Assembly: GCA_002705265.1 (NCBI GenBank)
Contig: PAHR01000021.1
Coordinates: 1-64,000 of the forward strand
From: Pelagibacteraceae bacterium
GTDB taxonomy: Bacteria > Pseudomonadota > Alphaproteobacteria > HIMB59
Reading direction: 5' to 3'
DNA: 64,000 nucleotides
Shown piece after piece: positions 8,081 to 27,453 of the stretch. The notes below the pieces were generated by a model. That model was not told the DNA's origin. It did no database searches and was given only the letters and a program-made list of their open reading frames with translations. Each line of letters begins with the position of its first letter. Positions within the stretch are counted from its first letter, which is position 1. Position numbers and translations under genes: made by a program.

Positions 8081-8109
8081 TTAAAAAATTTTTATATTTC
8101 TATTAACTC

Positions 8110-8140: not shown

Positions 8141-8155
8141 ATTAATATTTAATTA

Positions 8156-10774: not shown

Positions 10775-10778
10775 AACA

Positions 10779-11645: not shown

Positions 11646-11651
11646 GGCAAT

Positions 11652-12467
11652 TTGCTCAGAAAAATTTTTGCTTATGTAGTTGGTGTAATATTTTTCTTTC
11701 CTATTTATTTTTTAATAACTTCTTCATTTAAAAATAATATTGACATTTTTGCGCTACCACCAAAATTATTTTTTTTTGATATTGATTTTTCAATTTATGA
11801 AAAAGTATTTTTTTTTTCAGACATATTCGAAGATAATTTTTTTTCATCTAGAATAATCGATAGTCTAATTATAGGCATTGGTTCTGCCTCATTGACTTTG
11901 ATAATAGCTATTTATTCTGGATATTGTTTATCTAGAATTAGTTTTAGTTATAGAAAGTTTTTTATTTTAGGAATTTTAAGTGCAAGAATGATGCCATTAA
12001 TGGCAATTACAATACCGATATATTTTTTATACGCAAAACTTAATTTAATAGATACTTATACTGGTATAATTTTAGTTCACACCTTTATAAACCTACCCTT
12101 AGCTGTATTATTGCTAAAAAGTTTTTTTGATGAAATACCTAAACAAATTGATGAAAATGCGTTCATTGATGGCGCTAGTAGACTTAAAATTATTCACAAA
12201 ATTATAATTCCTTCTGCAAAGAATGGCTTAGCGGTTACTTTTATTTTGTCTTTTATATTTAGCTGGACTGAGTTTATTTGTGCTCTGATGATAGGGCAAA
12301 TGAATATCAAAACTGTTCCTGTTCAAGCTTCTATTCTTAAAACAATACCAAGCTGGGACTACATGGCTGCATTTACAACTATCTCAATAATTCCAGTATT
12401 TATAATGATTTTATTGGTTAAAAATCATTTTGTCAGAGGCTTAACTCTAGGATCTATTAAGGAATAG
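11652..12467 (+). CDS. MalG-type ABC sugar permease, copy 2 (TTG start)
   Basis: The 271-residue protein is a clear paralogue of the permease just upstream. Matching landmarks are the first helix FFFPIYFLITSSFKN, IFALPPKLF, SARMMPL, NLPLAVLLLKSFFDEIP, the EAA loop ENAFIDGASRLKIIHKII and the end VRGLTLGSIKE. It starts at TTG, preceded by AAGG at a short distance; no ATG is available near the N-terminus. It is much more AT-rich and Phe/Ile/Lys-rich than copy 1. The EAA loop and all helices are kept, so it looks functional. It has no MalF partner of its own here and may exchange with copy 1 in alternative complexes. Confidence 0.86.
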   Translation: MLRKIFAYVVGVIFFFPIYFLITSSFKNNIDIFALPPKLFFFDIDFSIYEKVFFFSDIFEDNFFSSRIIDSLIIGIGSASLTLIIAIYSGYCLSRISFSYRKFFILGILSARMMPLMAITIPIYFLYAKLNLIDTYTGIILVHTFINLPLAVLLLKSFFDEIPKQIDENAFIDGASRLKIIHKIIIPSAKNGLAVTFILSFIFSWTEFICALMIGQMNIKTVPVQASILKTIPSWDYMAAFTTISIIPVFIMILLVKNHFVRGLTLGSIKE

Positions 12468-12481: not shown

Positions 12482-13258
12482 ATGGATTTGAAAGAAAACA
12501 GACTCTCAATAATTATTAGTGATATAATAAAAAATGGACAAATTGATATCAAATCCTTATCTAAAAAATTAAAAGTTAGTACTATGACCATATATAGGGA
12601 TGTTGAGGAATTTACTAAAAGTGGTGTTATAAAAAAAGAAAAAGGAATTTTATCTTCAAGCCAAACATTTACTCTTGAATATTTTCATGATGTAAGAGCA
12701 AATTTAAACTTGGCCCCTAAAATTAAGACTGCAGAGGAAGCTGGAAAAATAATTAAGCCTAATTCATTTGTTGCAATTGATGATAGCACTACATGTCTAC
12801 AGTTTGCAAATTTTCCTAAATATTTTGAGAATACAACAGTTGTAACAAATAATATAAAATTAATTAATATTTTTAGTAAAAATCCAAAAATTAAAATAAT
12901 TTCATTGGGTGGTAGATATAACAGACCCACAGGAAGTTTTTTGGGTCTTTCTACAGAAAATACAGCTTCTCAAATCCCATGTCATTATCTATTTATGTCT
13001 TCCTCTTCTCTAGATGGTACTAAATTATATACACACGACGAAGATGTATTTAGAACTAAAGCAATTCAAATGATAAACTCTGAAAAAAAATACTTTCTTT
13101 GTGATTCATCAAAAATAGGAAAAAAGGCTATGAATGTACAAGCAGACTTATCAAATTTTGAAAAATGTTTTTTTGCAGGTAATTTTTTTGATAAAGGATT
13201 TGAAAGCTTGCTCAAAAAGAAAAAAATTAATTTTGCCTACTTCAAAACAAAAAACTAG
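12482..13258 (+). CDS. DeoR-family transcriptional regulator
   Basis: This 258-residue cytoplasmic regulator has an N-terminal winged helix (about 1-57; LSKKLKVSTMTIYRDVEEF is the recognition region) and a C-terminal sugar-phosphate sensor domain of the isomerase-like DeoR fold (from about 75, with AIDDSTTCLQFA, VTNNIKLI, LGGRYN and LCDSSKIGKKA). Members usually repress sugar operons and are released by a phosphorylated intermediate. It closes the rightward operon of system A and ends overlapping rpiB tail-to-tail by 4 nt. It probably acts on the divergent region at 9674-9877 and perhaps on system B; this is inference. Confidence 0.9.
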   Translation: MDLKENRLSIIISDIIKNGQIDIKSLSKKLKVSTMTIYRDVEEFTKSGVIKKEKGILSSSQTFTLEYFHDVRANLNLAPKIKTAEEAGKIIKPNSFVAIDDSTTCLQFANFPKYFENTTVVTNNIKLINIFSKNPKIKIISLGGRYNRPTGSFLGLSTENTASQIPCHYLFMSSSSLDGTKLYTHDEDVFRTKAIQMINSEKKYFLCDSSKIGKKAMNVQADLSNFEKCFFAGNFFDKGFESLLKKKKINFAYFKTKN

Positions 13259-13698
13259 CTATCAAGCTCATTAATCTTATCAACTTTTTTTCCCGATCTT
13301 TCAGAATGAAATTTATTGTTTAACCAAATATCAGTATACATCAAGGCATTTGGGGTTCCGGTTACAAGGGCGCCAAATGTAATAATTTTTGCATTATTGC
13401 TTGCAATTGATCTTTCCGCTGTATAGGCATCATTGACACAAACTGCTCTTACACCTGAAAATTTATTAGCAACTATCGCCATACCAGCGCCAGTACCACA
13501 AACTAAAATACCTCGTTCAAAATCATTATTTTGAATCTTTTTAGCTAAACTTTTTCCTACATCAGGATAATCAACCTGCTCCTCTTCATTAACACCAATA
13601 TCTGTTACTTCAATTCCTTTTGACTCAAGATGTGCTTTTATTGAGTCTTTTAGGTCTTTTCCTAAATGATCAGCTCCTATTATTATTTTTTTAAGCAT
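13255..13698 (-). CDS. rpiB: RpiB/LacAB-family sugar-phosphate isomerase (system B)
   Basis: The 147-residue protein has the RpiB fold. The N-terminus IIIGADHLGKDLKDSI carries the substrate-binding Asp and His, and LVCGTGAGMAIVANK includes the catalytic Cys region, followed by GVRAVCVNDAYTAE. Family members interconvert aldose and ketose phosphates (ribose-5-P/ribulose-5-P, galactose-6-P, or erythrulose-4-P/erythrose-4-P in the erythritol pathway, EryI/DerI). It is the last gene of the 14-gene system B run. Given the EryA-like kinase and D-ribulokinase-type kinase upstream, a polyol-derived C4 or C5 phosphate is a reasonable guess, not proven. Confidence 0.87.
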   Translation of the reverse strand: MLKKIIIGADHLGKDLKDSIKAHLESKGIEVTDIGVNEEEQVDYPDVGKSLAKKIQNNDFERGILVCGTGAGMAIVANKFSGVRAVCVNDAYTAERSIASNNAKIITFGALVTGTPNALMYTDIWLNNKFHSERSGKKVDKINELDS

Positions 13699-13704
13699 AT
13701 TTAA

Positions 13705-14712
13705 TTATATATTTAAATCGCTCCAAGGTACATCTAGTTTTTGATCTTTGCAGATACTTAATAAAATATTATTTAAAATTGGTAGCTTTTTTATATCTAC
13801 ATGTTGTTGAAAAAAGATTTGGAGATCTTGAATTAACAACGCTCCTTCAATTGTTTCTCCTTTTAGTTCATTAGAAATAATTTCAGAGTATTTTTTATTT
13901 TTTGCTAAAAATTTTCCAAGGGAGCCATTTCTACCAGTACCAGATGTAACATGTAAATCCCCAAGTCCTGAAAGTCCATAAACTGTATCAGTCCTTCCAC
14001 CCATTGAAACTACCAAAGAATTCATTTCGTTTAAACAATGTGAAAATAGTGCTGATTCTGGATTAAAAATTTTTTTATTATTAGAATAGTATATTTGAGA
14101 GTATCCTATAATAATTGCGTAAATATTTTTCAAAGCAGCACTAGCTTCTGATCCTATTAAATCGCTTAGTGTATTAATAATATAAAAATTATTTTTGAAA
14201 ATATTTGATATTTGAATTGCTATATCTAATTCCTCATTTACAAAACATATATTTGTTAAATTTTTATTTGCTAATTCTTGAGCCTTACAAGGACCAGTAA
14301 CAGCCGTAATATTAATATCTTGGTCAATATTTTTTAGAATCTTATTTGGAAAAATATCTAACTTGTTATTGTCATTAACATACATTCCCTTTGTAATTAA
14401 TAAAAATTTCTTTTTTTCAATATTAAATTTTTTTACATAATCAATAAACCAGTCCAAGCCTTGTGAATTTACCCCAACTACAACTACATCAGCTTTATCA
14501 ATATCCTCCTGGGTCATTTCATTATTATGTTTTGCAATAGTATTAATTAACTGAACATCAAGTATTGGATGGTATGACTTTTCTTTTATAGAATTAATTA
14601 TTTCTTTATCTAAATTTGTACCAACTATCAAAGCGTTGTGACCATTATTTGTAGCAGGGATTGTAATAGCAGTTCCCATTACTCCAGCACCAATTGATAA
14701 AATATTAGACAT
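13705..14712 (-). CDS. GpsA-like NAD(P)-dependent glycerol-3-phosphate dehydrogenase family protein (system B)
   Basis: The 335-residue protein follows GpsA along its length. It has an N-terminal Rossmann loop IGAGVMGTAI, the conserved lysine region SAALKNIYAIIIG and the C-terminal signature GLSGLGDLHVTSGTGRN. Several positions differ from housekeeping GpsA: GAGVMG replaces the usual GAGAWG, and TGPCKAQELA stands where SGPSFA is usual. With its place in a catabolic operon, this suggests a paralogue acting on another polyol phosphate rather than the phospholipid enzyme. It overlaps the SDR gene by 1 nt. Whether a second, housekeeping gpsA exists outside this window cannot be seen. Confidence 0.78.
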   Translation of the reverse strand: MSNILSIGAGVMGTAITIPATNNGHNALIVGTNLDKEIINSIKEKSYHPILDVQLINTIAKHNNEMTQEDIDKADVVVVGVNSQGLDWFIDYVKKFNIEKKKFLLITKGMYVNDNNKLDIFPNKILKNIDQDINITAVTGPCKAQELANKNLTNICFVNEELDIAIQISNIFKNNFYIINTLSDLIGSEASAALKNIYAIIIGYSQIYYSNNKKIFNPESALFSHCLNEMNSLVVSMGGRTDTVYGLSGLGDLHVTSGTGRNGSLGKFLAKNKKYSEIISNELKGETIEGALLIQDLQIFFQQHVDIKKLPILNNILLSICKDQKLDVPWSDLNI

Positions 14713-15482
14713 TATGAAATAAATTGGCCTCCATTAATCTCAATAATTTGTCCTGTTAAATATCCGCTCATTGTATTAGAGCAAAGAAAAACAATTGGCC
14801 CTACACAATCTTGAGGACTTCCGATCCTTTTCATTGGTATTTTTAACCTCGTAGCTTCTAATTTTTCTTTAGAAGAATATTGTTCATGAAATTTAGTATT
14901 AATCGTGCCTGGAGATATGGCATTAATTCTAATATTGAAAGGGGATAATTCAGATACAAGAGATCTTGTTATGCCAGAAACAAAAGCTTTTGAAGCTGCA
15001 TAAACGCTTGATCCTGCGCTGCCTCCAGTTCTGGCACTAATAGTAGAAACATTAACAATGCATCCTGAATTATTTTTTTTAAATACGTCTGATGCTTTTT
15101 TAGTAGCAAAATATGCTGATTTAGCATTCAAATCAAATATTTCCAAAAACTCACTTTCAGATATTTTTTCTAAATTGTACCTACCTATCATTGTACCTGC
15201 ATTATTAACCAATATATCTAATCCATCTAAATATTTTATAGCATCATTCATAAAATTATTTACATTTTTTAAATCATTAAAATTAGATTTAATTACTTTA
15301 AAGTTTTTGTTATTGGTTTTTGAAAGTATTTTTTCTTCTAATCCATCAGTTGAATTATTACCATGAAATATTACTTGGGCACCTAAGGTTAAAAATTCTA
15401 AAGCAGTGTGAAATCCTATACCTGTACTTGAGCCCGTTACTATAACTTTTTTATTTTTAAACTCCTCAAAATTAATAATCAT
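14712..15482 (-). CDS. Short-chain dehydrogenase/reductase (system B)
   Basis: This is a 256-residue classical SDR. The cofactor loop is VTGSSTGIGFHTALEF, followed by NNAGT and the catalytic NVSTIS serine region. Tyr and Lys are in YAASK, and the C-terminus GYLTGQIIEINGGQF is typical of FabG-like sugar-alcohol dehydrogenases. It would oxidise or reduce a polyol or hydroxy-intermediate with NAD(P)H. Start and stop overlap both neighbours (4 nt with the HAD gene, 1 nt with the GpsA-like gene), so it is translated as part of the system B message. Confidence 0.87.
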   Translation of the reverse strand: MIINFEEFKNKKVIVTGSSTGIGFHTALEFLTLGAQVIFHGNNSTDGLEEKILSKTNNKNFKVIKSNFNDLKNVNNFMNDAIKYLDGLDILVNNAGTMIGRYNLEKISESEFLEIFDLNAKSAYFATKKASDVFKKNNSGCIVNVSTISARTGGSAGSSVYAASKAFVSGITRSLVSELSPFNIRINAISPGTINTKFHEQYSSKEKLEATRLKIPMKRIGSPQDCVGPIVFLCSNTMSGYLTGQIIEINGGQFIS

Positions 15483-16324
15483 TTTAGTTCATCTATAACA
15501 AAGTCTGGCATGCCAGTTACTTGTAAGTCCGATTTAATACTGTGAATTGTATCAATATCTGAAATTTTTTCAGAAAAGTTTTTCTTATGTATGCCATTTT
15601 TTATCAAAAGTGATTTAATTCCAAAGTTATTAGCGCCAGCAATATCATTAAAAAGCGAGTCTCCTATCATAAGTATTTCATCTTTATTTTTTAATGATTT
15701 AGCTTGAACATATTCATAGATTTCAATTCCTGGTTTTCCAAAAACATAAGTTTTTCCTCCTATTTTCTTGTAAAATATTGCTAAATCACCAGTTGATGGA
15801 TGGATATCTTTCCCAGATATGCCCAATATGTCTGGGTTAGAGCAAATAAGTGGTATATTTAATTTTAATGCAATTTTCATTTCTTTATGTGCATTTTCAA
15901 AATCATGAAAACCAGCAGTTGAAGTAAGCAATAAAAAATCTGCATGTTCTAAATTAGTAGTTTTATTAAAATTAGTATCTTTCAATAATGGGTAATCTAT
16001 TCCTATGGGATAATAATTTTTACCTATGTCCTTACAAGGTCCTTTATTTTCAGTTAAATAATTAAGACAAACATCACCAGAGGTGATAATTTCTGTTTTT
16101 AAAATGTGTTTGGCGCCCATCTGTTGAAGCCTTCCTATATTATCAGAAGATTTTTTACCAGAATTACTAACAACAAAAATTAATTTATTTTCTTCTAAAA
16201 GATCTTTAAATATCCTTTCAGCGTTTGGATATAAATTTTCTCCATTATGGATTACACCCCACTGATCAAAAAGAAATACATTAAATTCATTTTTAATATC
16301 ATAAAGTGACTCTAAGCATTTCAT
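15479..16324 (-). CDS. HAD-superfamily IIA (NagD-like) phosphatase (system B)
   Basis: The 281-residue protein has a HAD core with a C2-type cap. Motif I is LFDQWGVIHNG, with the nucleophilic Asp and the Trp-Gly variant seen in a known HAD-IIA subgroup. Motif II is VVSNSG, the lysine of motif III lies in FGKPG, and motif IV is MIGDSLFNDIAGA. Relatives dephosphorylate small sugar or glycerol phosphates. In this operon it may remove a dead-end or toxic phospho-intermediate, or adjust a phosphate pool. It lies 1 nt after the D-ribulokinase-type gene and overlaps the SDR gene by 4 nt. Confidence 0.85.
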   Translation of the reverse strand: MKCLESLYDIKNEFNVFLFDQWGVIHNGENLYPNAERIFKDLLEENKLIFVVSNSGKKSSDNIGRLQQMGAKHILKTEIITSGDVCLNYLTENKGPCKDIGKNYYPIGIDYPLLKDTNFNKTTNLEHADFLLLTSTAGFHDFENAHKEMKIALKLNIPLICSNPDILGISGKDIHPSTGDLAIFYKKIGGKTYVFGKPGIEIYEYVQAKSLKNKDEILMIGDSLFNDIAGANNFGIKSLLIKNGIHKKNFSEKISDIDTIHSIKSDLQVTGMPDFVIDELK

Positions 16325-16325
16325 T

Positions 16326-17597
16326 TTAATTTATAAAACCCCCTGCAATTAAAGCTGAACCAAATGAAGCCTGAGTAGATAATGGGGTAACTAATTTAAT
16401 ATCTAGAATTTTAGATCTAATCTTGTTCCAATTATCATTGTTTGAACCACCGCCAACAGTAAAAATCTCATTGGGATAATCTCCTCCAATTTCTTTTAAT
16501 CTTGAGTAACATAATTTCTCTACATTTGATATTCCTTCTAATATTGCTTGAAAAAAAATTATTTCTGAATCAGGCCTAGGTTCTAAAATTGCTTTTTTAT
16601 TAGGATCGTTATATGGAAATCTCTCTCCTGTTTTAAATAAGGGGTAATAATCCATACCAGTTAGTTTAGAAGGATTGACTTGTCTAGAAAGTGATTCAAT
16701 CTTATCTTCAAATAAATGCTTTAGGATATTCCCTCCCACATTTGAAGCCCCACCTGCAAGCCACTTGCTTCCTAGTTTATGGCTATAAATACCATAATCT
16801 TTGTTAAATATAGGTTTTTTAGATATGTACTTAACTACTAAACTAGATCCTATAGATGTAACTGCTTGACCAATTTTATTTGCTCCAGTTGCTAAAAAGG
16901 CGGCAATGCTATCTGTTGTACCTGCTACAACTTGAGTTTTTTTATTGAAACCTAAGTCTAAGAGTTCTTTATTTTGTAAAAAATTTAATGTCGTTCCGGG
17001 TGATAAAATTTTTGGCAGGCTTTCTTGATTTATTGGCAATTTAGCAATCCAATCTGGCCATTTTTTATTCACACAATCATATCCTAATTTTAATGAATTA
17101 TTATCATCAGAGTAAATAAATTCATTAATAATTTTACCTGCTATCCAATCAGCTTGGTGTAAAATTTTATATGATTGGATATCTTTTTTCTTATCTTTGA
17201 TGATTTTTAGTGCTCTTACTAAAGCATTACTTGAACTAGATACTATGGGATGATTATCAGAGATTTTTTCAACTAATTTACCTTCATTAATGGAAGATGT
17301 ATCATTATACATTATCGCATTGGATAAAGGCATTCCCACAAAGTCAGTTAGGAGCACTGTGCCTGATGTACCATTTACAGAAATCTTATTAATTGATTGT
17401 ATATCAAAATTTTTTTTTAAATTATTACTAAGCTCTATAAAAGCATTCCACCAAATATAAGGGTCTTGAGAAATTATATTATTTTTCTCTAAAGGGAGAG
17501 GTATTGGAACTTGGCAGTTATAAATTTCCTTTTTATCTTTATTAATTACCGATGCTCGAACACCGGATGTACCAAAGTCAATACCAAGAAACATCAA
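16326..17597 (-). CDS. D-ribulokinase-type FGGY kinase (system B)
   Basis: This 423-residue FGGY kinase is shorter than xylulokinases and matches the compact cyanobacterial/plant D-ribulose kinase group. GIDFGTSGVRASV, NGTSGTVLLTD, AGTTDSIAAFLATGA, AVTSIGSSLVVK, YSHKLGSKWLAGGASNVGG and GERFPYNDP are the group's recognisable blocks. The reaction would be ATP-dependent phosphorylation of D-ribulose, the product of ribitol or arabitol oxidation, to ribulose-5-phosphate. This fits the RpiB-type isomerase encoded downstream. The identification rests on remembered family motifs rather than a search. It overlaps the aldolase gene by 4 nt. Confidence 0.82.
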   Translation of the reverse strand: MMFLGIDFGTSGVRASVINKDKKEIYNCQVPIPLPLEKNNIISQDPYIWWNAFIELSNNLKKNFDIQSINKISVNGTSGTVLLTDFVGMPLSNAIMYNDTSSINEGKLVEKISDNHPIVSSSSNALVRALKIIKDKKKDIQSYKILHQADWIAGKIINEFIYSDDNNSLKLGYDCVNKKWPDWIAKLPINQESLPKILSPGTTLNFLQNKELLDLGFNKKTQVVAGTTDSIAAFLATGANKIGQAVTSIGSSLVVKYISKKPIFNKDYGIYSHKLGSKWLAGGASNVGGNILKHLFEDKIESLSRQVNPSKLTGMDYYPLFKTGERFPYNDPNKKAILEPRPDSEIIFFQAILEGISNVEKLCYSRLKEIGGDYPNEIFTVGGGSNNDNWNKIRSKILDIKLVTPLSTQASFGSALIAGGFIN

Positions 17598-18619
17598 TTA
17601 ATTGTCTGTCTATATATCTCTGCATCCCAATTTAGCAATTCATTTTCTTGATTTTGAGTAAAATATTTTATCTCATTATCTAATTGGACTCTTAATAAAA
17701 TTTCTATAAAGCAATCCATCATTTCTCTTGCTGCATCAATACAACTGTTAGATTCAAACAGACCGTATTTTTCTATAATTAAAAAAGGCGGGGGCTTAAT
17801 TTCCTTTTTCTTCATCTCTGAATTAAACTTATTAGCATCATCTGAGGATTTAAAAACGGGAACACCTGGTCCTAAGAAAATTACATGATCTGGATATAAA
17901 GATTTAGAAAAAATTTCTAGTAACTTTTTATCAGATGTTTGAAAAATCCTATATTTTTCAGTATTTTTAAAAATATAATCAGTAACTTCTACCTCATCAT
18001 CAATATCATATAGCGGGCATGAGTCATTATATACTTGGTCTAATTTATCGTGAGTTTCAATTAATAGATCATAGGTTCTTTCAAGGCTATCTCCAGCTAC
18101 TATCAATCCATGATTTTCTAAAATAATAATTTGAGTATCACTTTTTATTATACTTTTCATCAAATTTGTTAAAGGCACGCCTGGTCTTATATAAGGTACA
18201 AATACTATATCTTTACCAAGTTTTTGTTTTAATAATTTTTCTGAATTCACATAAACTGCATTAGCAATTATAGAAGTAGAGTGTACATGTAATACGTATT
18301 TAAATTTAAGTAATGCGTGGAAAGAGGTCTCAGTCGAAGGACGCAGATCATTATTGGAAATGATATCCTCTACAAAATTATCATCAACGTCATTGCTAAT
18401 TTTTTTTTGAATTGATTTTAGGTTTACTTCAACAAATATATCTTTTTTTAAAGAATCTTCTAACCATGTTCCTGAAGCTTTAATAAACATACTATCATCA
18501 AGTTTAATGGAAGTATTTCCTCCAGCTGCCTGAACCAGATTTTTATTCGAACCAAGTTTATATGAAATTTCTTTGAAATTTTTAAGTTCTTCTTCTACAG
18601 AAGAATTAATATTTACCAT
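17594..18619 (-). CDS. Class II aldolase with C-terminal extension, stand-alone RhaD-like (system B)
   Basis: The protein resembles the aldolase half of the RhaD-SDR fusion at 1436, including the extension after the core (YPDHVIFLGPGVPVF, then a C-terminal ELLNWDAEIYRQ), but lacks the SDR domain. GGNTSIK, HVHST and ENHGL mark the phosphate- and zinc-binding sites. The track start at 18637 is a TTG; I prefer ATG at 18619, leaving a 14-nt overlap with the upstream aldolase gene. It would cleave a ketose 1-phosphate into a triose phosphate and an aldehyde. It is one of two class II aldolase genes in tandem. Confidence 0.83.
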   Translation of the reverse strand: MVNINSSVEEELKNFKEISYKLGSNKNLVQAAGGNTSIKLDDSMFIKASGTWLEDSLKKDIFVEVNLKSIQKKISNDVDDNFVEDIISNNDLRPSTETSFHALLKFKYVLHVHSTSIIANAVYVNSEKLLKQKLGKDIVFVPYIRPGVPLTNLMKSIIKSDTQIIILENHGLIVAGDSLERTYDLLIETHDKLDQVYNDSCPLYDIDDEVEVTDYIFKNTEKYRIFQTSDKKLLEIFSKSLYPDHVIFLGPGVPVFKSSDDANKFNSEMKKKEIKPPPFLIIEKYGLFESNSCIDAAREMMDCFIEILLRVQLDNEIKYFTQNQENELLNWDAEIYRQTIN

Positions 18620-19247
18620 ATGACTTAATTGCCTCAACTATTATTTTCATATATTTATTTTCAACAAGCTTGGGCTTACCATTTATTCTTGCAATTGTAA
18701 TTTGTTTACAAAGTATTTCAAACTCTTCTGTCAAAAACATTGCTTCTTCCAAATCTTTACCACAAGTAATAGGTCCATGATTTGCCAACAGACATGCTTT
18801 CCTATCCTTAAGAGCTTTTAATGCTGCTTTAGATAATTCCTTTGAGCCTGGAAGGGCAAAAGTTGAACATTTAATGGTGTCGCCACCCATAAACCCAATC
18901 ATGTAGTGATATGGCTTAATGTCTTTTCTTAAGATCGACATCCCAGATCCATAAGCAGGATGATTATGGACTACAACATTGAACTCTTTTCTATTTTTTA
19001 AAATATCTAAATGAAACATCCACTCACTAGATGGTTTCCAAATTCCTTGATGTTTGCCTTTATTATCAACAAAAACAATGTCTTTTGCTTTCATCCCATC
19101 ATAGGATATCCCAGAAGGTGTAATGAGCATGCCGTCTTTCCATCTGACGCTGATATTTCCTGCTTTTCCTTGATTTAATCCTTTTTCTTCAAGAATTAAG
19201 CATGCTTTAATTATGCTTTCTCTTACTTGTTTTTCTTTTTTATTCAT
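18606..19247 (-). CDS. Class II aldolase, FucA/AraD-like (system B)
   Basis: This compact aldolase of about 213 residues has all the family features: QGKAGNISVR for phosphate binding, PSSEW with the acidic catalytic residue, the first two zinc histidines in VVHNHPAYG and the third in LANHGP. It resembles fuculose-phosphate aldolase and related sugar-phosphate aldolases or epimerases. The track start at 19265 is TTG. The correct start is most likely ATG at 19247, because AGAAAGGA lies 5 nt upstream of it. The gene begins 11 nt after the hydroxyacid dehydrogenase stop. Two neighbouring aldolases suggest that the pathway handles two stereoisomers or two steps. Confidence 0.87.
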   Translation of the reverse strand: MNKKEKQVRESIIKACLILEEKGLNQGKAGNISVRWKDGMLITPSGISYDGMKAKDIVFVDNKGKHQGIWKPSSEWMFHLDILKNRKEFNVVVHNHPAYGSGMSILRKDIKPYHYMIGFMGGDTIKCSTFALPGSKELSKAALKALKDRKACLLANHGPITCGKDLEEAMFLTEEFEILCKQITIARINGKPKLVENKYMKIIVEAIKSYGKY

Positions 19248-19258
19248 GTTTGTCCTTT

Positions 19259-20299
19259 CTAACAAATCTTATTAATTAGCTTTTTGTTTTCTAAATAATT
19301 TTTTAAGTCTTCAGCTATTACTTCGGCTGCATAATAGACAGTCTTGATCGAGGCTCCCGCAATATGCGGAGTTAATGTAACATTGTCAAGTTTTCTTAAG
19401 GGATGGTTTCCTGGCAATGGTTCAATATCAAATGTATCTAACGCCGCACCACTCAGATGTCCGCTTTTAAGATTATCTAACAAAGCATCATAATCTACCA
19501 GGGGACCTCTTGCGGTATTAATAAAATAAGAATGTTTTTTCATGTTACTAAATTCAGGACCTGCAAAAAATTTTTCTGTTTCTTTTGTTACTCTCGCGTG
19601 TAGCGATACTACATCTGATCTTGATAAAAGCTCTTCTTTTGAAACTCTTTCAATATTATTCTTTTTATCAATTTCATCTTTCTCCACAAACGGGTCAGTA
19701 AAAATGATTTTACAACCAAATGGTATTAATAAATCCCTTACTCTTTTCCCAATATGACTATATCCGACAAGACCAACGGTGAGTTCAGATAATTCTCTTC
19801 CTGTAATATCAAATCTATAAAGGTCTCCCCTCCATTCACCATTAATCATACTTTGGTGACCTTTTGTAACTAATCTCGTTTCAGATAATATTGATGCTAT
19901 CGTGAACTCCGCTACTGCTGATGCGTTTCTTCCCGGGGCATTAACAACAGTAATGTTATTTTTTTTACAAGCATCTATGTCAATATTTACTGGACCACCT
20001 CTTGATACTCCAATAAATTTTAAATTTGGAAGTTTTTCAATAATTGCTTCAGTAATCGGCGCCAAATCAGTGATTAAAATTTCATTGTCTTTTACAATGC
20101 TTACAACATCTTCTTCGGTTCCAAAGTATTCTTTTACTTTAGAAAAATTATCTTTTCCGTAATCATTATGAAAAGGACCATCTGGCCATTCGATATCTTT
20201 TTTTAAGAAGTCAAGATCATAGCTATTTAATTTTTTTGATATTACTTCTTCAAAAATATCAGCTTTCATAAAGCGATCACCATATATGCTAATTTTCAT
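19259..20299 (-). CDS. D-isomer-specific 2-hydroxyacid dehydrogenase (system B)
   Basis: The 346-residue protein has the split catalytic domain and Rossmann domain of the phosphoglycerate/hydroxypyruvate/glycerate dehydrogenase family. The NAD motif is VGYSHIGKRV, and the catalytic triad Arg (NTARGPLVD), Glu (FDIEPLPG) and His (TPHIAGAS) is intact. It likely reduces or oxidises a hydroxy acid derived from the imported substrate, for example from the aldehyde released by the aldolases. No ACT domain follows, so it is not a regulated SerA. It overlaps the kinase gene by 1 nt. Confidence 0.88.
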   Translation of the reverse strand: MKISIYGDRFMKADIFEEVISKKLNSYDLDFLKKDIEWPDGPFHNDYGKDNFSKVKEYFGTEEDVVSIVKDNEILITDLAPITEAIIEKLPNLKFIGVSRGGPVNIDIDACKKNNITVVNAPGRNASAVAEFTIASILSETRLVTKGHQSMINGEWRGDLYRFDITGRELSELTVGLVGYSHIGKRVRDLLIPFGCKIIFTDPFVEKDEIDKKNNIERVSKEELLSRSDVVSLHARVTKETEKFFAGPEFSNMKKHSYFINTARGPLVDYDALLDNLKSGHLSGAALDTFDIEPLPGNHPLRKLDNVTLTPHIAGASIKTVYYAAEVIAEDLKNYLENKKLINKIC

Positions 20300-21858
20300 T
20301 AATCATTTTCCTTTAAATCAGAGTAAGAATTCCAAAATGGGCCCATATTTTGATATCCTTTTTTATATGTTTCAAAAGCATTATTATATATGTCGGATAG
20401 CTCCTCATCATAATTTTCAATTTTACTTAAGTAGGGATTTATCCAATCTTTATTTGAGTCTTCATATTCTTTGTAATGCTTAAGTGCTAATAAGCCCACG
20501 ATGCAGGCACCTGCAGCACCCTGTTCACTATTATTTATAACTTGAACATCATTTTTGGTTACGGCACCAACAATCTTTCTTACTAGATTACTTTTGCTAG
20601 CTCCACCAGTTAACATTAGTAGATCTAATTTAGCTCCGAATTCTGTGTAGCAATCCCTACATGCATAAGCTAATCCTTCATACAAAGCTCTAACTAAATC
20701 ATAGGTAGATGTTGTGGTGCTTAATCCTAAATATTGAGCTCTGGCTTTAACGTTTACAAATGGTCCTCTTTCGCCATTTGGTGAAATAAAAGGGTGGTAA
20801 AAAATTTGAGCGGGACTAGATTTTGATGCACCGTCCTCAAATATTTTTAATATTTTATCTTTGTCTGCCTTTAAGCTTGAATAGTCGCCTATGATTGTAG
20901 AAAAAATATCAATTAACCAATCTGTATTTAAAGAGGCTACCATATTTGATATCATCTTGGCATTCGCATTTGAGCCAGAAATTGGAAGTGTATATCCTAA
21001 TTGTTTTGAGGTATCGGCTTGTTTTTTTTCAAAGTCTACAAAAATGTGTATCCCGGCTGTTCCTAGGACAGTACATCCAATTTTTTTATTTTTATTAACA
21101 AAACCACTTCCGATACCAGAACAAACTATATCTACAGGAGCTAGTATAATAGACAGTCCTTCTTTAAGACCTAGTGCTTTTGAAGCATCACTGCTTAATT
21201 TTCCAATATATTCGGTACTATCTATCATGTTAGGTTGCTTTGGTTTCATATCTTTAAAATCAAGTATCTCTAAAATTTTATCATCATATTTTCTAGTCAC
21301 AGGGGATCCCCATGTCATATTTCCCGAGCCAATTTCTGTAAGTAAATCACCTGTCATTTTATGAAATATCCAATCTTGGCATCTCAATACCTTATCAATT
21401 TTCGCAAACCTATCAGGTTCATTCAAATAAATATGAAACATCTGTCCTGTTTGCATAGAGGAATTCAATCCTGTATGAGTGATAGAGGTTATACTTTTAC
21501 CAATGTTGTTATTTCTCCACTCATCAATTAAATCCCCTGATCTGCCATCAAGCCATAAAGCTGCATCGCCTACAGGATTTTGAGATTTATCTATGGGCCA
21601 GCTACCGTCTCCTTGGCCTGTAATAGATATTGCAATAACATTATCTACGAGATCTCCCATCTTTAATTTAAGTTTAGAAAATGCCTGTACAACCTTTGAC
21701 CATGTTTCTTCTAGGTTTTGTTCTGCCTTGTTTCCTTTTCTGTAATAAACTTTATTAGGGACGGATGCTGTCTCTATGAGCTTGCCCTCAAGTGTAAAAG
21801 CGACAAACTTGATCAAGGACGTACCAGCATCTAGTCCGATAATGATTTCTTTTGCCAT
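20299..21858 (-). CDS. EryA-like polyol (erythritol-type) kinase, FGGY family (system B)
   Basis: The 519-residue FGGY kinase shows blocks that I associate with Brucella/rhizobial erythritol kinase. They are GLDAGTSLIKFVAF at the N-terminus, SVPN, SITGQGDGSW, LWLDGRSG, CQDWIF and GCTVLGTAGIHI. ATP-dependent phosphorylation of erythritol or a similar linear polyol is the expected reaction. It is the first enzyme gene after the transporter genes and overlaps the second ATPase gene by 1 nt, as expected for the entry step. An AI-2-kinase or L-xylulose-kinase-like specificity cannot be excluded from sequence alone. No EryB/EryC-named set is complete here. Confidence 0.8.
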   Translation of the reverse strand: MAKEIIIGLDAGTSLIKFVAFTLEGKLIETASVPNKVYYRKGNKAEQNLEETWSKVVQAFSKLKLKMGDLVDNVIAISITGQGDGSWPIDKSQNPVGDAALWLDGRSGDLIDEWRNNNIGKSITSITHTGLNSSMQTGQMFHIYLNEPDRFAKIDKVLRCQDWIFHKMTGDLLTEIGSGNMTWGSPVTRKYDDKILEILDFKDMKPKQPNMIDSTEYIGKLSSDASKALGLKEGLSIILAPVDIVCSGIGSGFVNKNKKIGCTVLGTAGIHIFVDFEKKQADTSKQLGYTLPISGSNANAKMISNMVASLNTDWLIDIFSTIIGDYSSLKADKDKILKIFEDGASKSSPAQIFYHPFISPNGERGPFVNVKARAQYLGLSTTTSTYDLVRALYEGLAYACRDCYTEFGAKLDLLMLTGGASKSNLVRKIVGAVTKNDVQVINNSEQGAAGACIVGLLALKHYKEYEDSNKDWINPYLSKIENYDEELSDIYNNAFETYKKGYQNMGPFWNSYSDLKEND

Positions 21859-22991
21859 TAAATTCCGTTGAATATAACTTCTTCAGAATCTCGATTAAAA
21901 GCATTAATGGACTCTGAAGGAAAATGCATTTTTATATCAGAGCTTGGTTGAAAGTTTCTGTCTGCCACGCTTATAATTGATGAGCCGCCAATTTCAATTC
22001 CAATATGAACTTGATCTCCTAGCCAATGATAGGTGGAACTTTCTGCCTTGCCTTCTAAATTTGTAGTTTCTTTATTAAAGTTAATTTTGTGAGGGCGAAT
22101 ACCTAAAGTAATAATTTGTTCATTCGCAATTTTATTTAAATTTTCTTTGTTTAACTCATTATTAGAATACTTAATAGAAAAATTTTTTTCATCTTTGTCA
22201 TTTAAAATTTCGAAAGTCAAATGGGTTTCTGTTTTTAAAACTTTTGCTTTGAGAATGTTCATTGGTGGCTCTCCAATAAAAGATGCAACAAATACATTAG
22301 AAGGTTTAGAGCTGATGTCATAAGGAGAAGCTAATTGTTTAAGATCTCCCTCTTCCATAACTGCTATTTTATCTGCGAGGGCAACTGCTTCAGTTTGGTC
22401 ATGTGTAACAAAAATAACAGTTTTATTATTATGTTGAATATAATCTTTAACTCTCGCTCTAAGAACCGCTCGAAGCTGGGGCTCAAGCTGTGACATAGGC
22501 TCATCTAATAAAAGTGCATCAGAATCTCTTACAAGAGCTCTTGCTAAACTAACTCTTTGTTGTTGTCCTCCAGATATAGAGGGAGGATATCTTTCTAAAA
22601 TATCAGTTATTTCGAGTAATTCTGAAACTTCTTTTACTTTACTATCAACTTCATTTTTTGAAATTTTTTCTTTCATTAAGCTAAACGCTATATTATCCCT
22701 AACAGTTAGTGGGGGATAAAGAGCATATCCTTCGAACGCCATAGCAACATTTCTTTCTGCCGGCTTTAAATCATTAACAAGCTTACCACTAATTTTTATT
22801 TCACCTGATGTAATAGTTTCAAATCCAGCGATCATTCTTAAGGTTGTTGTTTTTCCACAACCCGAGGAACCAAGGAGAGCTAAAATTTCCCCTTCTTCAA
22901 GATTTAAGTTAAAGTTATTTACTGCTTTTACATCTGTTCCTGCCTTAATTTCAAATATTTTGTTGAGATTATTTAATATAACTTTGGACAT
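21858..22991 (-). CDS. ABC transporter ATPase, second subunit of a non-identical pair (GlpT-like, system B)
   Basis: The 377-residue ATPase has Walker A GSSGCGKTTT (41-50), signature SISGGQQQRVSLARAL, Walker B ALLLDEPMSQLEP and switch His in FVTHDQTEA. Two positions are unusual: the Q-loop glutamine is replaced by Glu (MAFEGYALYP, residue 87), and the D-loop reads SQLEP instead of SNLDA. A C-terminal OB/TOBE domain follows. Its direct neighbour encodes a second ATPase with different defects, so a heterodimer is likely, as in the rhizobial glycerol transporter GlpSTPQV. This one keeps the catalytic Glu and switch His and is probably the active partner. Confidence 0.88.
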   Translation of the reverse strand: MSKVILNNLNKIFEIKAGTDVKAVNNFNLNLEEGEILALLGSSGCGKTTTLRMIAGFETITSGEIKISGKLVNDLKPAERNVAMAFEGYALYPPLTVRDNIAFSLMKEKISKNEVDSKVKEVSELLEITDILERYPPSISGGQQQRVSLARALVRDSDALLLDEPMSQLEPQLRAVLRARVKDYIQHNNKTVIFVTHDQTEAVALADKIAVMEEGDLKQLASPYDISSKPSNVFVASFIGEPPMNILKAKVLKTETHLTFEILNDKDEKNFSIKYSNNELNKENLNKIANEQIITLGIRPHKINFNKETTNLEGKAESSTYHWLGDQVHIGIEIGGSSIISVADRNFQPSSDIKMHFPSESINAFNRDSEEVIFNGI

Positions 22992-24074
22992 TTATTCTAA
23001 GTTCCTTTTTGTAATAGCGTCAAAAAAAAGACATTTATCCTCCTTAAAGGACACATATAGTTGTTCTTTTTCTTTTATGTTTTTAGCTTCCTCCTCGCTC
23101 ATTGAGCACAAAAGCTCTAAGCCATTAGAAAGCTTAACCAAAAATACTATTCTTAAATTTAATGGTGTTTTAGTTCTAAACTCAACTTTTAAAGATTCTT
23201 CAGTTTGTTGATTTGATAAATTAATGTCTTCTGGGCGTATACCAACAATACATTCTCCATTTTCTATACTTGTCTTTCTTTGTAAGATAATTTTTTCACC
23301 ATTACATTCAGCTATTACACGATTTTCATTTTTACTAATGACCGCATTAAAGTTGTTTATAGTTGGATCACCAAAAAGTTTCGCTGTAGTTAAAGAAGAA
23401 GGTTTTTCATAGATATTTTTTGGTAAGTCAATATCATTAAACTTTCCATCGTATAAAACAGCAATTCTATCAGCTAATGCCATTGCCTCTCTATAATCTT
23501 GAGATATATAAATTACTGTCGTATTAAATTCTTTAAGAACTTTTGGTAGTTCTAATCTCATTTCAAATCTTATTTTTGCATCTACGTTTCTCAAAGGATC
23601 ATCTAGTAGAACTACCGATGGTCTGTTTACTAAACTTCTGGCAAGAGATGTTCTTTGTTTTTGTCCATTTGATAATTCTTTTGGATATTGATTAAGAACA
23701 TGATCAATTTTTAAGAGATTTGCTATTTCTTTAACTTTGGAATCGATTTCATCTTGCGAAATATTATTTGCCTTTAATGGACTGGCGATGTTTTCGTATG
23801 CTTTCATATGGGGGTAAAGAGCAAAATTTTGAAAAGCCATTGAAACATCACGTTCTTCAGGATGTAAGTCATTTATAACTGCGTTTTCCATTTTTATTTC
23901 ACCTGAATCAGGAAGGAGAATGCCTGAAAGCAATCTTAATAAAACAGTTTTACCAGATCCCGATGGACCAAATATTACAAAAAATTCACCTTTATTAATT
24001 TCTGCATTGAGACCTTGTATAACTTTGTCATCCTTAAAGCTTTTTGAAATGCTTTCTAATTTAATGTAACTCAT
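22992..24074 (-). CDS. ABC transporter ATPase with degenerate catalytic residues (GlpS-like, system B)
   Basis: The 360-residue protein has an intact Walker A (GPSGSGKT, 36-43), but the signature reads LSNGQ (134-138). The Walker B catalytic Glu is Asp (VVLLDDP, residue 159), and the switch histidine is Gln (ISQDYREA, residue 192). Such changes usually leave a subunit that binds ATP but hydrolyses it poorly. It abuts the second ATPase gene with no intergenic base and overlaps the permease gene by 1 nt. The pairing of two non-identical ATPases resembles GlpS/GlpT of rhizobial glycerol importers; the assignment is by organisation and motif pattern. Confidence 0.88.
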   Translation of the reverse strand: MSYIKLESISKSFKDDKVIQGLNAEINKGEFFVIFGPSGSGKTVLLRLLSGILLPDSGEIKMENAVINDLHPEERDVSMAFQNFALYPHMKAYENIASPLKANNISQDEIDSKVKEIANLLKIDHVLNQYPKELSNGQKQRTSLARSLVNRPSVVLLDDPLRNVDAKIRFEMRLELPKVLKEFNTTVIYISQDYREAMALADRIAVLYDGKFNDIDLPKNIYEKPSSLTTAKLFGDPTINNFNAVISKNENRVIAECNGEKIILQRKTSIENGECIVGIRPEDINLSNQQTEESLKVEFRTKTPLNLRIVFLVKLSNGLELLCSMSEEEAKNIKEKEQLYVSFKEDKCLFFDAITKRNLE

Positions 24075-24928
24075 TAACCTTTAATTGCGCCTAAACTCAA
24101 TCCCTGAACAAGATACTTTTGAATAAATAAAGCCAGTATTAATGTAGGTAAAACTGAAACCACAATACCACACGCGATAAGCCCATATGGAATAGCGCTT
24201 GCTGTAATAAATGCTAGGGCACCAACAGTAACTGGCTGAATTGCGCTTGACCCTAAAATCAATGCAAAAACGAAATTATTCCAAGCATAAATAAAACACA
24301 ATAAAGATGCTGCCGCTATTCCTGGTTTTGCTAATGGAATAGAAATTTTCCAAAAAGATTGAAACCAAGAATGTCCATCTAATCTGTAGGCATATTCTAT
24401 ATCTGGACTTATATCTTCAAAATAACCTCTAACAATCCATAACAATAATGGAAGTGTAATAAGCTGGTATACCCAAATTAGTGCGATATAACTATCGTAA
24501 AGGCCTATCTGTGTAAAATATAAATTTAAAGGGATAATTATTAATAATGCAGGCGCAAATCTAAAACTTAAAAGAGTAAAAGCTATATCTTCTCCTCCTT
24601 TAAATTTATACCTAGCAAAGGCATAAGCGGCCGGAACACCAAGAACAAGAGTTAAAGCAACTGAAAAGCTAGAAAGTATAGCGCTATTAATTAAATTTTG
24701 TTTAAAATAAATATACATCGTTGCAAATCCTGGAATTGAAATTTCCCCTTCCCATATTCCAATGTAGTTTTTAAGGGTTGGCTCATAAAATAAAACTGGT
24801 ACTTTTCTTAAAATCTCATCATTTGTCATAAATGACATGTTTAAAATCCAAGCTATTGGAAATAGAAAAAATAAAATAATTGCGGCATAAGCAAATATTT
24901 TTAAGATAGACCAAATATTAAATTTCAT
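24074..24928 (-). CDS. MalG-type ABC permease (system B)
   Basis: The 284-residue inner-membrane subunit has about six helices: an N-terminal one at FAYAAIILFFLFPIAWILNM, further helices at ALTLVLGVPAAYAFARY and later, the EAA loop YAYRLDGHSWFQSFWKISIPL and the terminal QGLSLGAIKG. The EAA loop departs from consensus (EYAYRLDG rather than EAAxxDG), which may match the unusual ATPase pair. It overlaps the partner permease gene by 4 nt (ATGA) and the ATPase gene by 1 nt. Confidence 0.91.
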   Translation of the reverse strand: MKFNIWSILKIFAYAAIILFFLFPIAWILNMSFMTNDEILRKVPVLFYEPTLKNYIGIWEGEISIPGFATMYIYFKQNLINSAILSSFSVALTLVLGVPAAYAFARYKFKGGEDIAFTLLSFRFAPALLIIIPLNLYFTQIGLYDSYIALIWVYQLITLPLLLWIVRGYFEDISPDIEYAYRLDGHSWFQSFWKISIPLAKPGIAAASLLCFIYAWNNFVFALILGSSAIQPVTVGALAFITASAIPYGLIACGIVVSVLPTLILALFIQKYLVQGLSLGAIKG

Positions 24929-25815
24929 TGAAGTAGCTCACCTTTAGTCTTAATTTTTAATTTTTGCCATTGTTGCACAAACACATGACACAAAAAGTAA
25001 CAAATTGCCCATAATACAACCATCATCGCAGCTGACTTGCCTATATTAGTATACTGAAAAGTATGAAGGTATGCTGACACTTGAAAGACCATACTGCTTT
25101 CTCCAGGTCCTCCTTGAGATAAAGCATAAATTATATCAAATTGCTGAATGCTCTCAAGCAAACGAAAAAGACTGGCGGTTAAAATAAATGGAAATAACAT
25201 AGGGAGTGTAATTCTAAAAAATTTATAGTATTCAGGAACTCCATCGAGTTCGGCAGCTTCAAAAGGCTGTCTTGGAAGTGACCTTAGGCCTGCTAATAAT
25301 AAGACCATTATAAAGGGCGTAAAAACCCAAACATCAACCATTATTAATGTAAACAAAACCGTATCTGGATGACTTGCCCAAGTGAATTCACTCAATCCAA
25401 CAAAGGAGAGAATATAATTCACAATCCCAAAGTTTGGATTTATCATTAACTTCCAAATTAAGGAAGCAAGAGCGGGCGCGATCATCAATGGTAAAATTAG
25501 CAAAACACCTAAAATATTATTTAGCCAGTTTCTTTTAGCTAGAAGCAAAGCTATTCCTAACCCTAATAATAGCTCAACAATTATCGTGAAAAAAGTATAG
25601 GTCAGAGAAACTTTTATTGTGTTCCAAAAAGAAGCATCAGTAAAAATATTAATATAGTTATCAAACCAAATAAATCCTTTCATATGAGGCATTTTTAAGT
25701 TGTACCTTTGAAGAGAATAATAAACTGCTGTAAAGAATGGAATTAATATTCCAACACAAACTAATAATGCGGGAAGAGTTAAGACATATGGGAATAGTTT
25801 ACGGTTAATTTTCAT
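24925..25815 (-). CDS. MalF-type ABC permease (system B)
   Basis: The 296-residue membrane subunit opens with a helix at LFPYVLTLPALLVCVGILIPFF and contains a conserved EAA loop (EAAELDGVPEYYKFFRITLPM). A typical periplasmic turn, YALSQGGPGESS, lies before the last helices. It forms the channel with the MalG-type subunit encoded immediately downstream (4-nt overlap). A 67-nt gap with a stem-loop separates it from the binding-protein gene upstream. The ATG start at 25815 fits the first helix. Confidence 0.92.
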   Translation of the reverse strand: MKINRKLFPYVLTLPALLVCVGILIPFFTAVYYSLQRYNLKMPHMKGFIWFDNYINIFTDASFWNTIKVSLTYTFFTIIVELLLGLGIALLLAKRNWLNNILGVLLILPLMIAPALASLIWKLMINPNFGIVNYILSFVGLSEFTWASHPDTVLFTLIMVDVWVFTPFIMVLLLAGLRSLPRQPFEAAELDGVPEYYKFFRITLPMLFPFILTASLFRLLESIQQFDIIYALSQGGPGESSMVFQVSAYLHTFQYTNIGKSAAMMVVLWAICYFLCHVFVQQWQKLKIKTKGELLQ

Positions 25816-25833
25816 ATTTATTATTGAACGTAT

Positions 25834-25868
25834 CCTACACCGCTTTTGATAAAATTAAACGGTGTAGG
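25834..25868 (-). promoter_or_regulatory. Intercistronic hairpin after the system B binding-protein gene
   Basis: A 9-bp perfect stem (CCTACACCG / CGGTGTAGG) with a 17-nt loop lies between the binding-protein stop and the MalF-type permease start. No T run follows on the transcribed strand, so a role in mRNA 3' protection or partial attenuation is more likely than full termination. It sits in the same operon position as the hairpin at 8110-8140 but differs in sequence. Confidence 0.55.
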
Positions 25869-25882
25869 TTAAAAGATTTAAT

Positions 25883-27331
25883 CTAAGCTAAACCGACGTC
25901 TTTCATCATTCCATCAATCTTGCCTGCAAGTTTATCAAGTGTTTCGCCTACATTTGATCCAGTTTGCATTTCTTGAAGAGCTGCAGCCCATTCTGTTGTT
26001 GTTTCAAAGAATAGTGGCTGTGCTGTGAAATGAATTTTTGATCCATCAATTGAGCTGTTATACTGTTCCATATAACCAGGAGATGTTCCACGAATTTTAT
26101 CATCAAAATCACCTGAAGCCCATACTGACTCTCTAACAGGGTTAACTTGATTGTGCTTAACTCCCCCTGCCATTGCATTTTCAGGACCATTAGCCCATTG
26201 CATCCAATACCAAGCAGCATCTTTATTCTTAGAAAAGTTACTCATTGCAAGAGACCAAATCCAAACGTTTGGAGTCGGTGCACTAGCGCTTGGGTTTGGA
26301 GTGAATCCATGGAATCCAAAGTTTCCAGCTTCTTTATTGTCTGGGTTACCATTGAAGAAGTATCCTAAAATATCAGCATCAAAAATCATTGCTGAAGAAC
26401 CTGCTCCAATGTCATTACCAACCTCATACCAAGTATAGTTAGACCAGTTTTTAGGTCCTGAAGATGAGATCATTTTAACCCATTGCTCGTGAAAGTCTTT
26501 TGAAGCTTGAGAATTCATCGCGGCTTTTAATTTTCCACCATTGTTCTCAAAATCACTAAGACCATAGTTTGCATAAGCAGACATAAACCCTGGATGGATT
26601 GTAGCCCAACTTCTACTTCCTCTAGTTCCTATACCATAAGACCATTCATCTGGGTTTTTGGTAAACCATTCAGCTTGATCAGTCATTTCAGGAAGATTTG
26701 AAGGTGGCTTCATACCAGCCTTATCAAAATATCTCTGATTATAAGTAACACTATTTAGCTCAAAGCCCCATGGCATACACCATTGCTTTGATCCTGCGCC
26801 ACCTGGTACTTCACCAGCTACACCACTCCAAGAACAAGCATCTCTTAAATTACCAACAACGTCGTTCCAGTTGTAGCTAGGATTAGTTTTGCTTGAATCG
26901 CCAATATAGTCATTCAAGTCTGCACACCATCCTGCTGGTCCGTAAGTCCAAGTCATATAAGCACCTGTCATAAAAGCATCATATTCTGATGACTTAGATG
27001 ATAGGGCTGCTGTTACTTTATCAAAATAAACATCTTCAGCAAAAATATCGTACTCGACATTCATTCCAGTCAAAGCTTTGAAATTATCAAGCTCGGCTAT
27101 CATGGAATCCATGTATGGATGTTTGTTCATTAAAAGCTTTATCGTTGTGCCACTGTGTTTCTTCCAATCAAAGTCTTGTGCGGCTAAAGCACTAGTAACC
27201 TGAGTTCCCATTAACTGCGTTAATGCAGCGAACCCAATACCATATTTACCTGCTTTGATTAGGAGATCACGTCTAGACATCTTTCCTTTAAGGAAAGTGT
27301 CAACGGCATTCTTCATTTTTGAATGAGACAT
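25883..27331 (-). CDS. Extracellular solute-binding protein (sugar/polyol), Tat-type signal (system B)
   Basis: This 482-residue family 1 binding protein is the periplasmic receptor of system B. The N-terminus has a twin-arginine motif SRRDLLIKAG (about 19-28), a hydrophobic stretch and an AxA-like cleavage region near SALAA (about 47-51). The body is Trp- and Tyr-rich, as in carbohydrate receptors. The start at 27331 is fixed by GGAGGG about 7 nt upstream. Base composition is richer than in neighbours, suggesting high expression. It is the first gene of the 14-gene leftward run. It shares general fold and signal type, but little obvious sequence, with the receptor of system A. Confidence 0.92.
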   Translation of the reverse strand: MSHSKMKNAVDTFLKGKMSRRDLLIKAGKYGIGFAALTQLMGTQVTSALAAQDFDWKKHSGTTIKLLMNKHPYMDSMIAELDNFKALTGMNVEYDIFAEDVYFDKVTAALSSKSSEYDAFMTGAYMTWTYGPAGWCADLNDYIGDSSKTNPSYNWNDVVGNLRDACSWSGVAGEVPGGAGSKQWCMPWGFELNSVTYNQRYFDKAGMKPPSNLPEMTDQAEWFTKNPDEWSYGIGTRGSRSWATIHPGFMSAYANYGLSDFENNGGKLKAAMNSQASKDFHEQWVKMISSSGPKNWSNYTWYEVGNDIGAGSSAMIFDADILGYFFNGNPDNKEAGNFGFHGFTPNPSASAPTPNVWIWSLAMSNFSKNKDAAWYWMQWANGPENAMAGGVKHNQVNPVRESVWASGDFDDKIRGTSPGYMEQYNSSIDGSKIHFTAQPLFFETTTEWAAALQEMQTGSNVGETLDKLAGKIDGMMKDVGLA

Positions 27332-27367
27332 AAATATATTCCCTCCTACTTTTATTTAATCATTTGA

Positions 27368-27395
27368 ATTTTAGCACGTTTGATGTTAAAAACAA
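27368..27395 (-). promoter_or_regulatory. Predicted promoter of the system B operon
   Basis: On the minus strand TTGTTT (27390-27395) and TAAAAT (27368-27373) are separated by 16 nt, giving a plausible sigma-70-type promoter. It would start transcription near 27361, about 30 nt upstream of the binding-protein ATG. The 122-nt gap also has to serve the rightward genes at 27454; no clear plus-strand promoter was recognised. Confidence 0.45.
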
Positions 27396-27453
27396 CAAAG
27401 TTTGTGTTATTTTAGGCCAATAAGCCGATACATAATTTATAAATTCATAAAAA

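Follow-up and report, generated by a model that had tools for sequence, protein, structure and literature searches.

The window examined here is a stretch of 64,000 nucleotides (contig PAHR01000021.1, positions 1 to 64,000) from a Pelagibacteraceae bacterium of the HIMB59 lineage. Its minus strand carries a run of fourteen genes (13255–27331) that is probably an operon for the uptake and catabolism of pentitols (ribitol and L-arabitol, perhaps also erythritol), homologous to a locus of Sinorhizobium meliloti and remodelled in HIMB59-type bacteria. Judged from its sequence, the block, found here in a small-genome marine bacterium, belongs to a known locus type but is divergent, remodelled, and losable. 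The original prediction knew of no described pathway with this set of genes. The S. meliloti mpt-ery-lal-rbt locus has eleven of the fourteen in the same order (PMC3599248), and the pathway type is already known from the genetics of root-nodule bacteria; what is new is the combination of genes, along with its recurrent loss in close relatives. If correct, this reading offers a testable substrate class (ribitol/L-arabitol) and an order of steps for a large gene block of the abundant AEGEAN-169/HIMB59 clade of marine bacteria. Expanded sugar use in that clade has been described only broadly (PMC10308909), and our literature search for HIMB59 together with pentitols found nothing specific in the papers it listed.

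A plasmid protein search with the 2-hydroxyacid dehydrogenase of the block led to rhizobial and rhodobacterial loci. The S. meliloti locus (L096) begins with a sugar-binding regulator, followed by a substrate-binding protein (SBP), two permeases, two ATPases, a kinase, a 2-hydroxyacid dehydrogenase, a class II aldolase, a GlpD-like protein, a second class II aldolase, an FGGY kinase, a HAD protein, and a sugar-phosphate isomerase, and it ends with DeoR, triose-phosphate isomerase, and RpiB (order from the annotation, with gaps in the table filled by mapping the window's proteins). Eleven of the fourteen window proteins map onto it one-to-one and colinearly, at 30–69% identity, while RpiB, GlpD, and DeoR lie elsewhere in that locus. 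Sinorhizobium fredii NGR234 (which lacks fucA) and Gemmobacter plasmids agree with the colinear arrangement, and two large alphaproteobacterial genomes (L084, L086) have a transporter-EryA-RbtA-FucA-GlpD run followed by reshuffled lalA/rbtB/rbtC homologues. The S. meliloti genes form the erythritol, adonitol (ribitol), and L-arabitol locus mptABCDE-eryA-rbtA-fucA-eryB-lalA-rbtBC-eryC / eryR-tpiB-rpiB (Geddes & Oresnik 2012, compared in PMC3599248). There, MptABCDE and EryA serve all three polyols, and lalA-rbtABC serves adonitol and L-arabitol and is not needed for erythritol (PMC3599248). These substrates are consistent with the ribitol, arabitol, and erythritol among the candidates listed in the original prediction.

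All fourteen open reading frames (ORFs) were confirmed without internal stops, and NCBIfam and Pfam uphold the family label of each. The families include RpiB, a GpsA-like protein, a short-chain dehydrogenase/reductase (SDR), HAD-IIA (TIGR01459), two FGGY kinases, RhaD-like and FucA-like class II aldolases, a 2-hydroxyacid dehydrogenase, and a family-1 SBP. The SBP, two permeases, and two ATPases of the MptABCDE-type transporter match the S. meliloti order at 43–69% identity. The SBP is 93–95% identical in nine relatives, and its best solved relative in the PDB is the sorbitol SBP 4rya. After the EryA-type kinase come the counterparts of rbtA, fucA, lalA, rbtB, and rbtC in S. meliloti-type order (individual names such as rbtA were assigned by gene order, as the text of PMC3599248 does not give a product for each). 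Both aldolases have intact metal ligands. The FucA-type enzyme keeps the E/H/H/H of Escherichia coli FucA in alignment, and the top NCBIfam matches of the LalA-type enzyme are RhaD-type fusion aldolases.

Two of the kinases could be placed with those of the known pathway, rather than with kinases of unrelated substrates. In a tree of forty rows, the kinase at 20299 sits within the EryA clade (support 100/100), which holds EryA from S. meliloti, Rhizobium leguminosarum, Shinella, NGR234, and Marinovum; deep placement among the E. coli kinases is unsure in this tree because of long branches. The kinase at 16326 matches SePSK/AtXK-1 in the PDB (5htr/5htn; phmmer, E about 1e-81 to 1e-83), and D-ribulose is the substrate that SePSK phosphorylates (PMC4880283). 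By tree and PDB match it groups with D-ribulose-phosphorylating kinases of the SePSK/RbtB type. The clades and the PDB match thus bear out the EryA-like and D-ribulokinase-type labels first given to these genes. A third FGGY kinase (5833), outside the block, belongs to neither the EryA nor the RbtB clade.

The window resembles S. meliloti further in having rpiB, a DeoR-type gene, and an eryB-like gene in the vicinity. Unlike in S. meliloti, the eryB-like gene lies outside the block on the opposite strand, eryC was not found in eight genomes of the genus, tpiB is not in the block, and rpiB is within the operon; SDR, GpsA-like, and glycerol-1-phosphate dehydrogenase (G1PDH)-like genes are added. 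What is new relative to this template is thus the SDR, GpsA-like, and RpiB genes at the tail and the divergent G1PDH-like gene. The Bradyrhizobium/Acidiphilium/Verminephrobacter type of locus, compared through a table in PMC3599248 only, likewise has MptABCDE, EryA, RbtA, LalA, and RbtBC without EryC, and differs from the window in the latter's SDR, GpsA-like, RpiB, G1PDH-like, and adjoining DeoR genes. That type, with no eryC, eryR, or tpiB, has been tied to the adonitol/L-arabitol complement (PMC3599248). The erythritol operon of R. leguminosarum and Brucella (eryABCD, EryEFG) shares with the window an EryA-clade kinase, a GlpD-like EryB, RpiB, and DeoR genes, but has a ribose-type transporter, EryC and TpiB, and no lalA/rbtABC.

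These comparisons bear on whether the pathway could instead be mainly one for a tetritol (erythritol or threitol), with an EryA-type kinase, an EryB/GpsA-like dehydrogenase, and RpiB as a tetrulose-4-phosphate isomerase of EryI/DerI type. The homology of kinase 20299 to EryA fits this, as does the use of MptABCDE/EryA for erythritol in S. meliloti, and the NCBIfam model for D-erythrulose-4-phosphate isomerase picks up the operon RpiB weakly (126 bits, where the cut-off is 240). However, EryC was not found in eight genomes of the genus, save two marginal matches (E > 0.003), and this absence separates the block from the eryABC-tpiB erythritol pathway and agrees with the adonitol/L-arabitol-only group of PMC3599248. 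In a tree that resolves poorly, has two wrong-frame ORFs among its housekeeping rows, and was used only coarsely, the RpiB also falls outside the EryI clade. In addition, tpiB is missing from the block, and S. meliloti can do without the lalA-rbtABC genes for erythritol. We consider a mainly tetritol pathway quite unlikely.

For the pentitol reading we infer each reaction from homology and colinearity with the S. meliloti locus, and the substrates named are candidates. A polyol would be imported by the Mpt-type ABC transporter and phosphorylated at one end by the EryA-type kinase. The carbon beside the phosphate would then be oxidized to give a 2-ketose-1-phosphate, by the GlpD/EryB-like enzyme (28772–30205), with the NAD-dependent GpsA-like and G1PDH-like enzymes possibly replacing or supplementing it. 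The phosphate of the erythritol pathway has an sn-glycerol-3-phosphate-like stereochemistry. If EryA acts here with the same stereochemistry, ribitol would yield D-ribulose-1-phosphate and L-arabitol would yield L-xylulose-1-phosphate. The FucA-type aldolase may split the former and the RhaD-type LalA the latter, each to dihydroxyacetone phosphate and glycolaldehyde, which would provide a stereochemical rationale for two class II aldolases side by side. In E. coli, FucA acts in a D-ribulose-1-phosphate pathway and RhaD in an L-xylulose-1-phosphate pathway (PMC6443609). Alternatively, RbtC may remove the 1-phosphate and RbtB phosphorylate D-ribulose at C5, with the resulting D-ribulose-5-phosphate entering the pentose phosphate pathway through RpiB. 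The SDR, possibly a ribitol/arabitol 2-dehydrogenase, may also oxidize ribitol straight to D-ribulose for RbtB. In outline, the logic first proposed for the block (polyol uptake, kinase, dehydrogenase, isomerase, aldolase) is supported.

Several points weigh against this scheme. The enzymes are just 30–50% identical to those of S. meliloti, mostly below the identity cut-offs of PMC3599248 (EryA 46%, LalA 49%, RbtB 51%, RbtC 40%), so the substrate may have drifted. In S. meliloti, fucA is dispensable (PMC3599248). The single GlpD/EryB homologue found, which adjoins the block and may fill both roles, probably also serves glycerol. Finally, the RbtC-type gene (15479–16324) has D-Q-W in place of the canonical HAD DxD, and all ten of the aligned RbtC-type sequences have D-Q-[WFY]. 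Lacking the second Asp, these proteins are only putative phosphatases, and RbtC appears to be the weak link of the branch that relocates the phosphate.

A more speculative scheme, which we doubt, combines the GpsA-like, G1PDH-like, and FGGY kinase proteins in soluble, NAD-linked oxidation of polyol phosphates of both glycerol-3-phosphate-like and glycerol-1-phosphate-like stereo-series, sharing the two aldolases. If true, such a merged locus would let a streamlined ocean bacterium degrade several stereoisomeric pentitols. We did not find this two-series scheme in the literature searched.

Neither of the two tail enzymes with housekeeping namesakes looks like the housekeeping copy. The GpsA-like protein was rejected as housekeeping GpsA, as it forms a separate clade and a distinct canonical copy is present in the window's own genome and in G111. 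In four incomplete genomes (G139, G155, G136, G119), the operon gene is present and canonical GpsA was not found. In G118, also incomplete, no member of the GpsA family was found. The operon RpiB is unlikely to be the housekeeping isomerase, since most relatives have another RpiB elsewhere; in the window's own incomplete genome it is the sole copy found. RpiA is absent, and this and the second RpiB copy both fit the pentitol reading.

The SBP was found in ten of 162 genomes of the order, all ten in the window's genus, and the LalA gene at ≥57% identity in sixteen. Gene order across the block is kept in the eight genomes (the window's own counted) in which both halves are visible, and is therefore not due to chance. 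In G127 and G140 the locus stops at a contig edge. Another seven (G111, G115, G129, G132, G133, G139, G149) have only the last seven genes, aldA to RpiB, beside glpD. They lack what we call the front unit: the transporter, the EryA-like kinase, the 2-hydroxyacid dehydrogenase, and the divergent G1PDH-like gene. Five of them (G139, G132, G129, G149, G133) share a junction at which the G1PDH-like gene, at its end, runs directly into the final 18 nt of the dehydrogenase gene (GTGAATAGGATCTGTTAA, with point differences in variants). The best explanation for this scar is that an ancestor carried the front unit and about 9.4 kb were lost, and the common junction argues for a single deletion event. 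We found no scar in G111 and G115, so their losses were probably separate. Horizontal insertion of the front unit was rejected for the G139 lineage, where genomes without it retain the scar. The idea of a single indivisible pathway is thus partly contradicted, because relatives that lost the front unit keep the back half. The remaining genes do stay together, and in five of the seven cases the separation reflects loss. Deletion of a transport-plus-kinase module from a streamlined genome that retains the downstream enzymes amounts to a natural experiment on the back half alone.

This pattern raises the question of whether the last seven genes are instead the lower part of a second polyol system (1436–13258) for another pentitol or hexitol, with Mpt-EryA-RbtA as an accessory feeder. 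The seven relatives, which lack the front unit, do retain the back half together with the second cluster wherever the latter can be seen. Elsewhere in alphaproteobacteria, homologues of this cluster occur beside lalA/rbtBC/fucA or beside gpsA-like/rpiB. In G493, the GpsA-like (39% identical) and RpiB homologues end an operon that otherwise matches the window's left cluster (permeases, SBP, SDR, kinase, G1PDH, UgpC). In G189, lalA-rbtBC-fucA homologues flank the counterpart of that cluster, with an mpt transporter adjacent, and in G335 lalA and fucA are found with it. The DeoR gene, moreover, sits between the two units. Set against this, lalA-rbtB-rbtC homologues are linked to mpt-eryA-rbtA in rhizobia, rhodobacters, and L084/L086, and in the window all fourteen genes form one packed run. 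We regard the second-system explanation as possible, if improbable. Given the arrangements in G493 and G189, the two polyol systems appear to have exchanged or shared lower enzymes.

Functionally related genes continue beyond the block on either side (1436–13258 and 27454–30205; Table 1). One could take the region for glycerol or glycerol-phosphate utilization, with a GlpSTPQV-like transporter with two ATPases, glpD, glpK, gpsA-like, and G1PDH-like genes. The two-ATPase architecture, the G1PDH family member, and glpD adjoining the block (plus glpK in relatives) are compatible with this. Yet each gene from the SBP through the permeases and both ATPases to the kinase has its own match in the mpt-eryA locus, and glycerol use leaves no role for a pentulokinase or two aldolases. 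The kinase tree, with kinase 20299 outside the GlpK clade, led us to reject a glycerol operon, which we hold to be very improbable.

Table 1. Features of the fourteen-gene block and its surroundings (window coordinates).
Feature	Position	Strand	Observation
Second polyol cluster	1436..12467	.	SBP, permeases, UgpC ATPase, FGGY kinase, G1PDH paralogue, SDR, aldolase/SDR fusion
DeoR-family regulator, weakly EryR-like	12482..13258	+	27-29% to DeoR gene of S. meliloti/NGR234 loci
RpiB-type isomerase	13255..13698	-	NCBIfam; second copy beside housekeeping RpiB in most relatives
GpsA-like dehydrogenase	13705..14712	-	Clade apart from housekeeping GpsA, 100/100
SDR dehydrogenase	14712..15482	-	NCBIfam/Pfam; no counterpart in S. 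meliloti locus
RbtC-type HAD-IIA protein	15479..16324	-	About 30% to S. meliloti RbtC; TIGR01459
RbtB-type D-ribulokinase	16326..17597	-	38% to S. meliloti RbtB; RbtB clade 100/99
LalA-type class II aldolase, RhaD-like	17594..18619	-	33% to S. meliloti LalA
FucA-type class II aldolase	18606..19247	-	42% to S. meliloti fucA
RbtA-type 2-hydroxyacid dehydrogenase	19259..20299	-	50% to syntenic S. meliloti gene
EryA-type FGGY polyol kinase	20299..21858	-	33% to S. meliloti EryA; adjoins transporter
MptE-like ATPase	21858..22991	-	47% to S. meliloti
MptD-like ATPase	22992..24074	-	43% to S. meliloti
MptC-like permease	24074..24928	-	50-69% to S. meliloti
MptB-like permease	24925..25815	-	63% to S. 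meliloti
SBP/permease gap with hairpin	25816..25882	-	67 nt, 12-bp stem, z = -3.5, no T-run
MptA-like polyol-binding protein (SBP)	25883..27331	-	56-59% to SBPs of rhizobial/rhodobacterial mpt loci
Divergent promoter region	27332..27453	.	TGTT-N6-AACA ahead of TAAAAT, largely conserved 5' of SBP gene
G1PDH-like Fe-type alcohol dehydrogenase	27454..28758	+	Divergent; lost along with front unit in relatives
GlpD/EryB-like FAD dehydrogenase	28772..30205	+	45% to S. meliloti eryB; genome's single homologue found

The ORF coordinates confirm the claim that the genes run leftwards and that, after the first hairpin gap, every junction is an overlap or at most 11 nt. Read 5' to 3', the junctions are 67 nt (SBP/permease), −4, −1, 0, −1, and −1. 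The junction before fucA is +11 with ATG 19247, the likelier start, or −7 with the listed TTG (19265), and those after it are an overlap, −1 or −4, +1, −4, −1, and +6 nt. The hairpin in the SBP/permease gap recurs at this place in four relatives, with z of −4.9 to −5.8, and the window's terminator-like sites do not include it. As it lacks a T-run, it is probably an mRNA-stability element rather than a terminator. Scans for sigma-70 promoters and terminators gave fewer sites than in shuffled sequence and were not used as evidence.

At its left edge, the block overlaps the convergent DeoR-type gene by 4 nt. At the other end, TGTT-N6-AACA occurs in the window as often as expected by chance, and only its position across genomes is suggestive. 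It was also seen 5' of aldA in G115, which has no front unit, and is a possible candidate operator common to the SBP and aldA promoters. With its listed ATG (28658), glpD shares 101 nt with the gene before it, and alignment to relatives suggests a true start near 28772. In the second cluster, a third permease (11652–12467) stands beside two others, is 48% identical to its neighbour, and diverges faster among relatives (60–84% versus 94–95%), as an extra duplicate.

Other loci show parts of the block. In G116 (L045), the operon is in many broken frames from kinase to transporter, probably through assembly indels or possibly decay. Other genomes of the genus (L054–L062) have a distant LalA homologue (32–36%) in a different sugar locus, beside galE in L056. 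In family f2 (L041–L044, L046, L047), an EryA-clade kinase (placement tested for L041–L044) and a FucA-type aldolase occur without the rest of the operon, and perhaps form a minimal polyol route.

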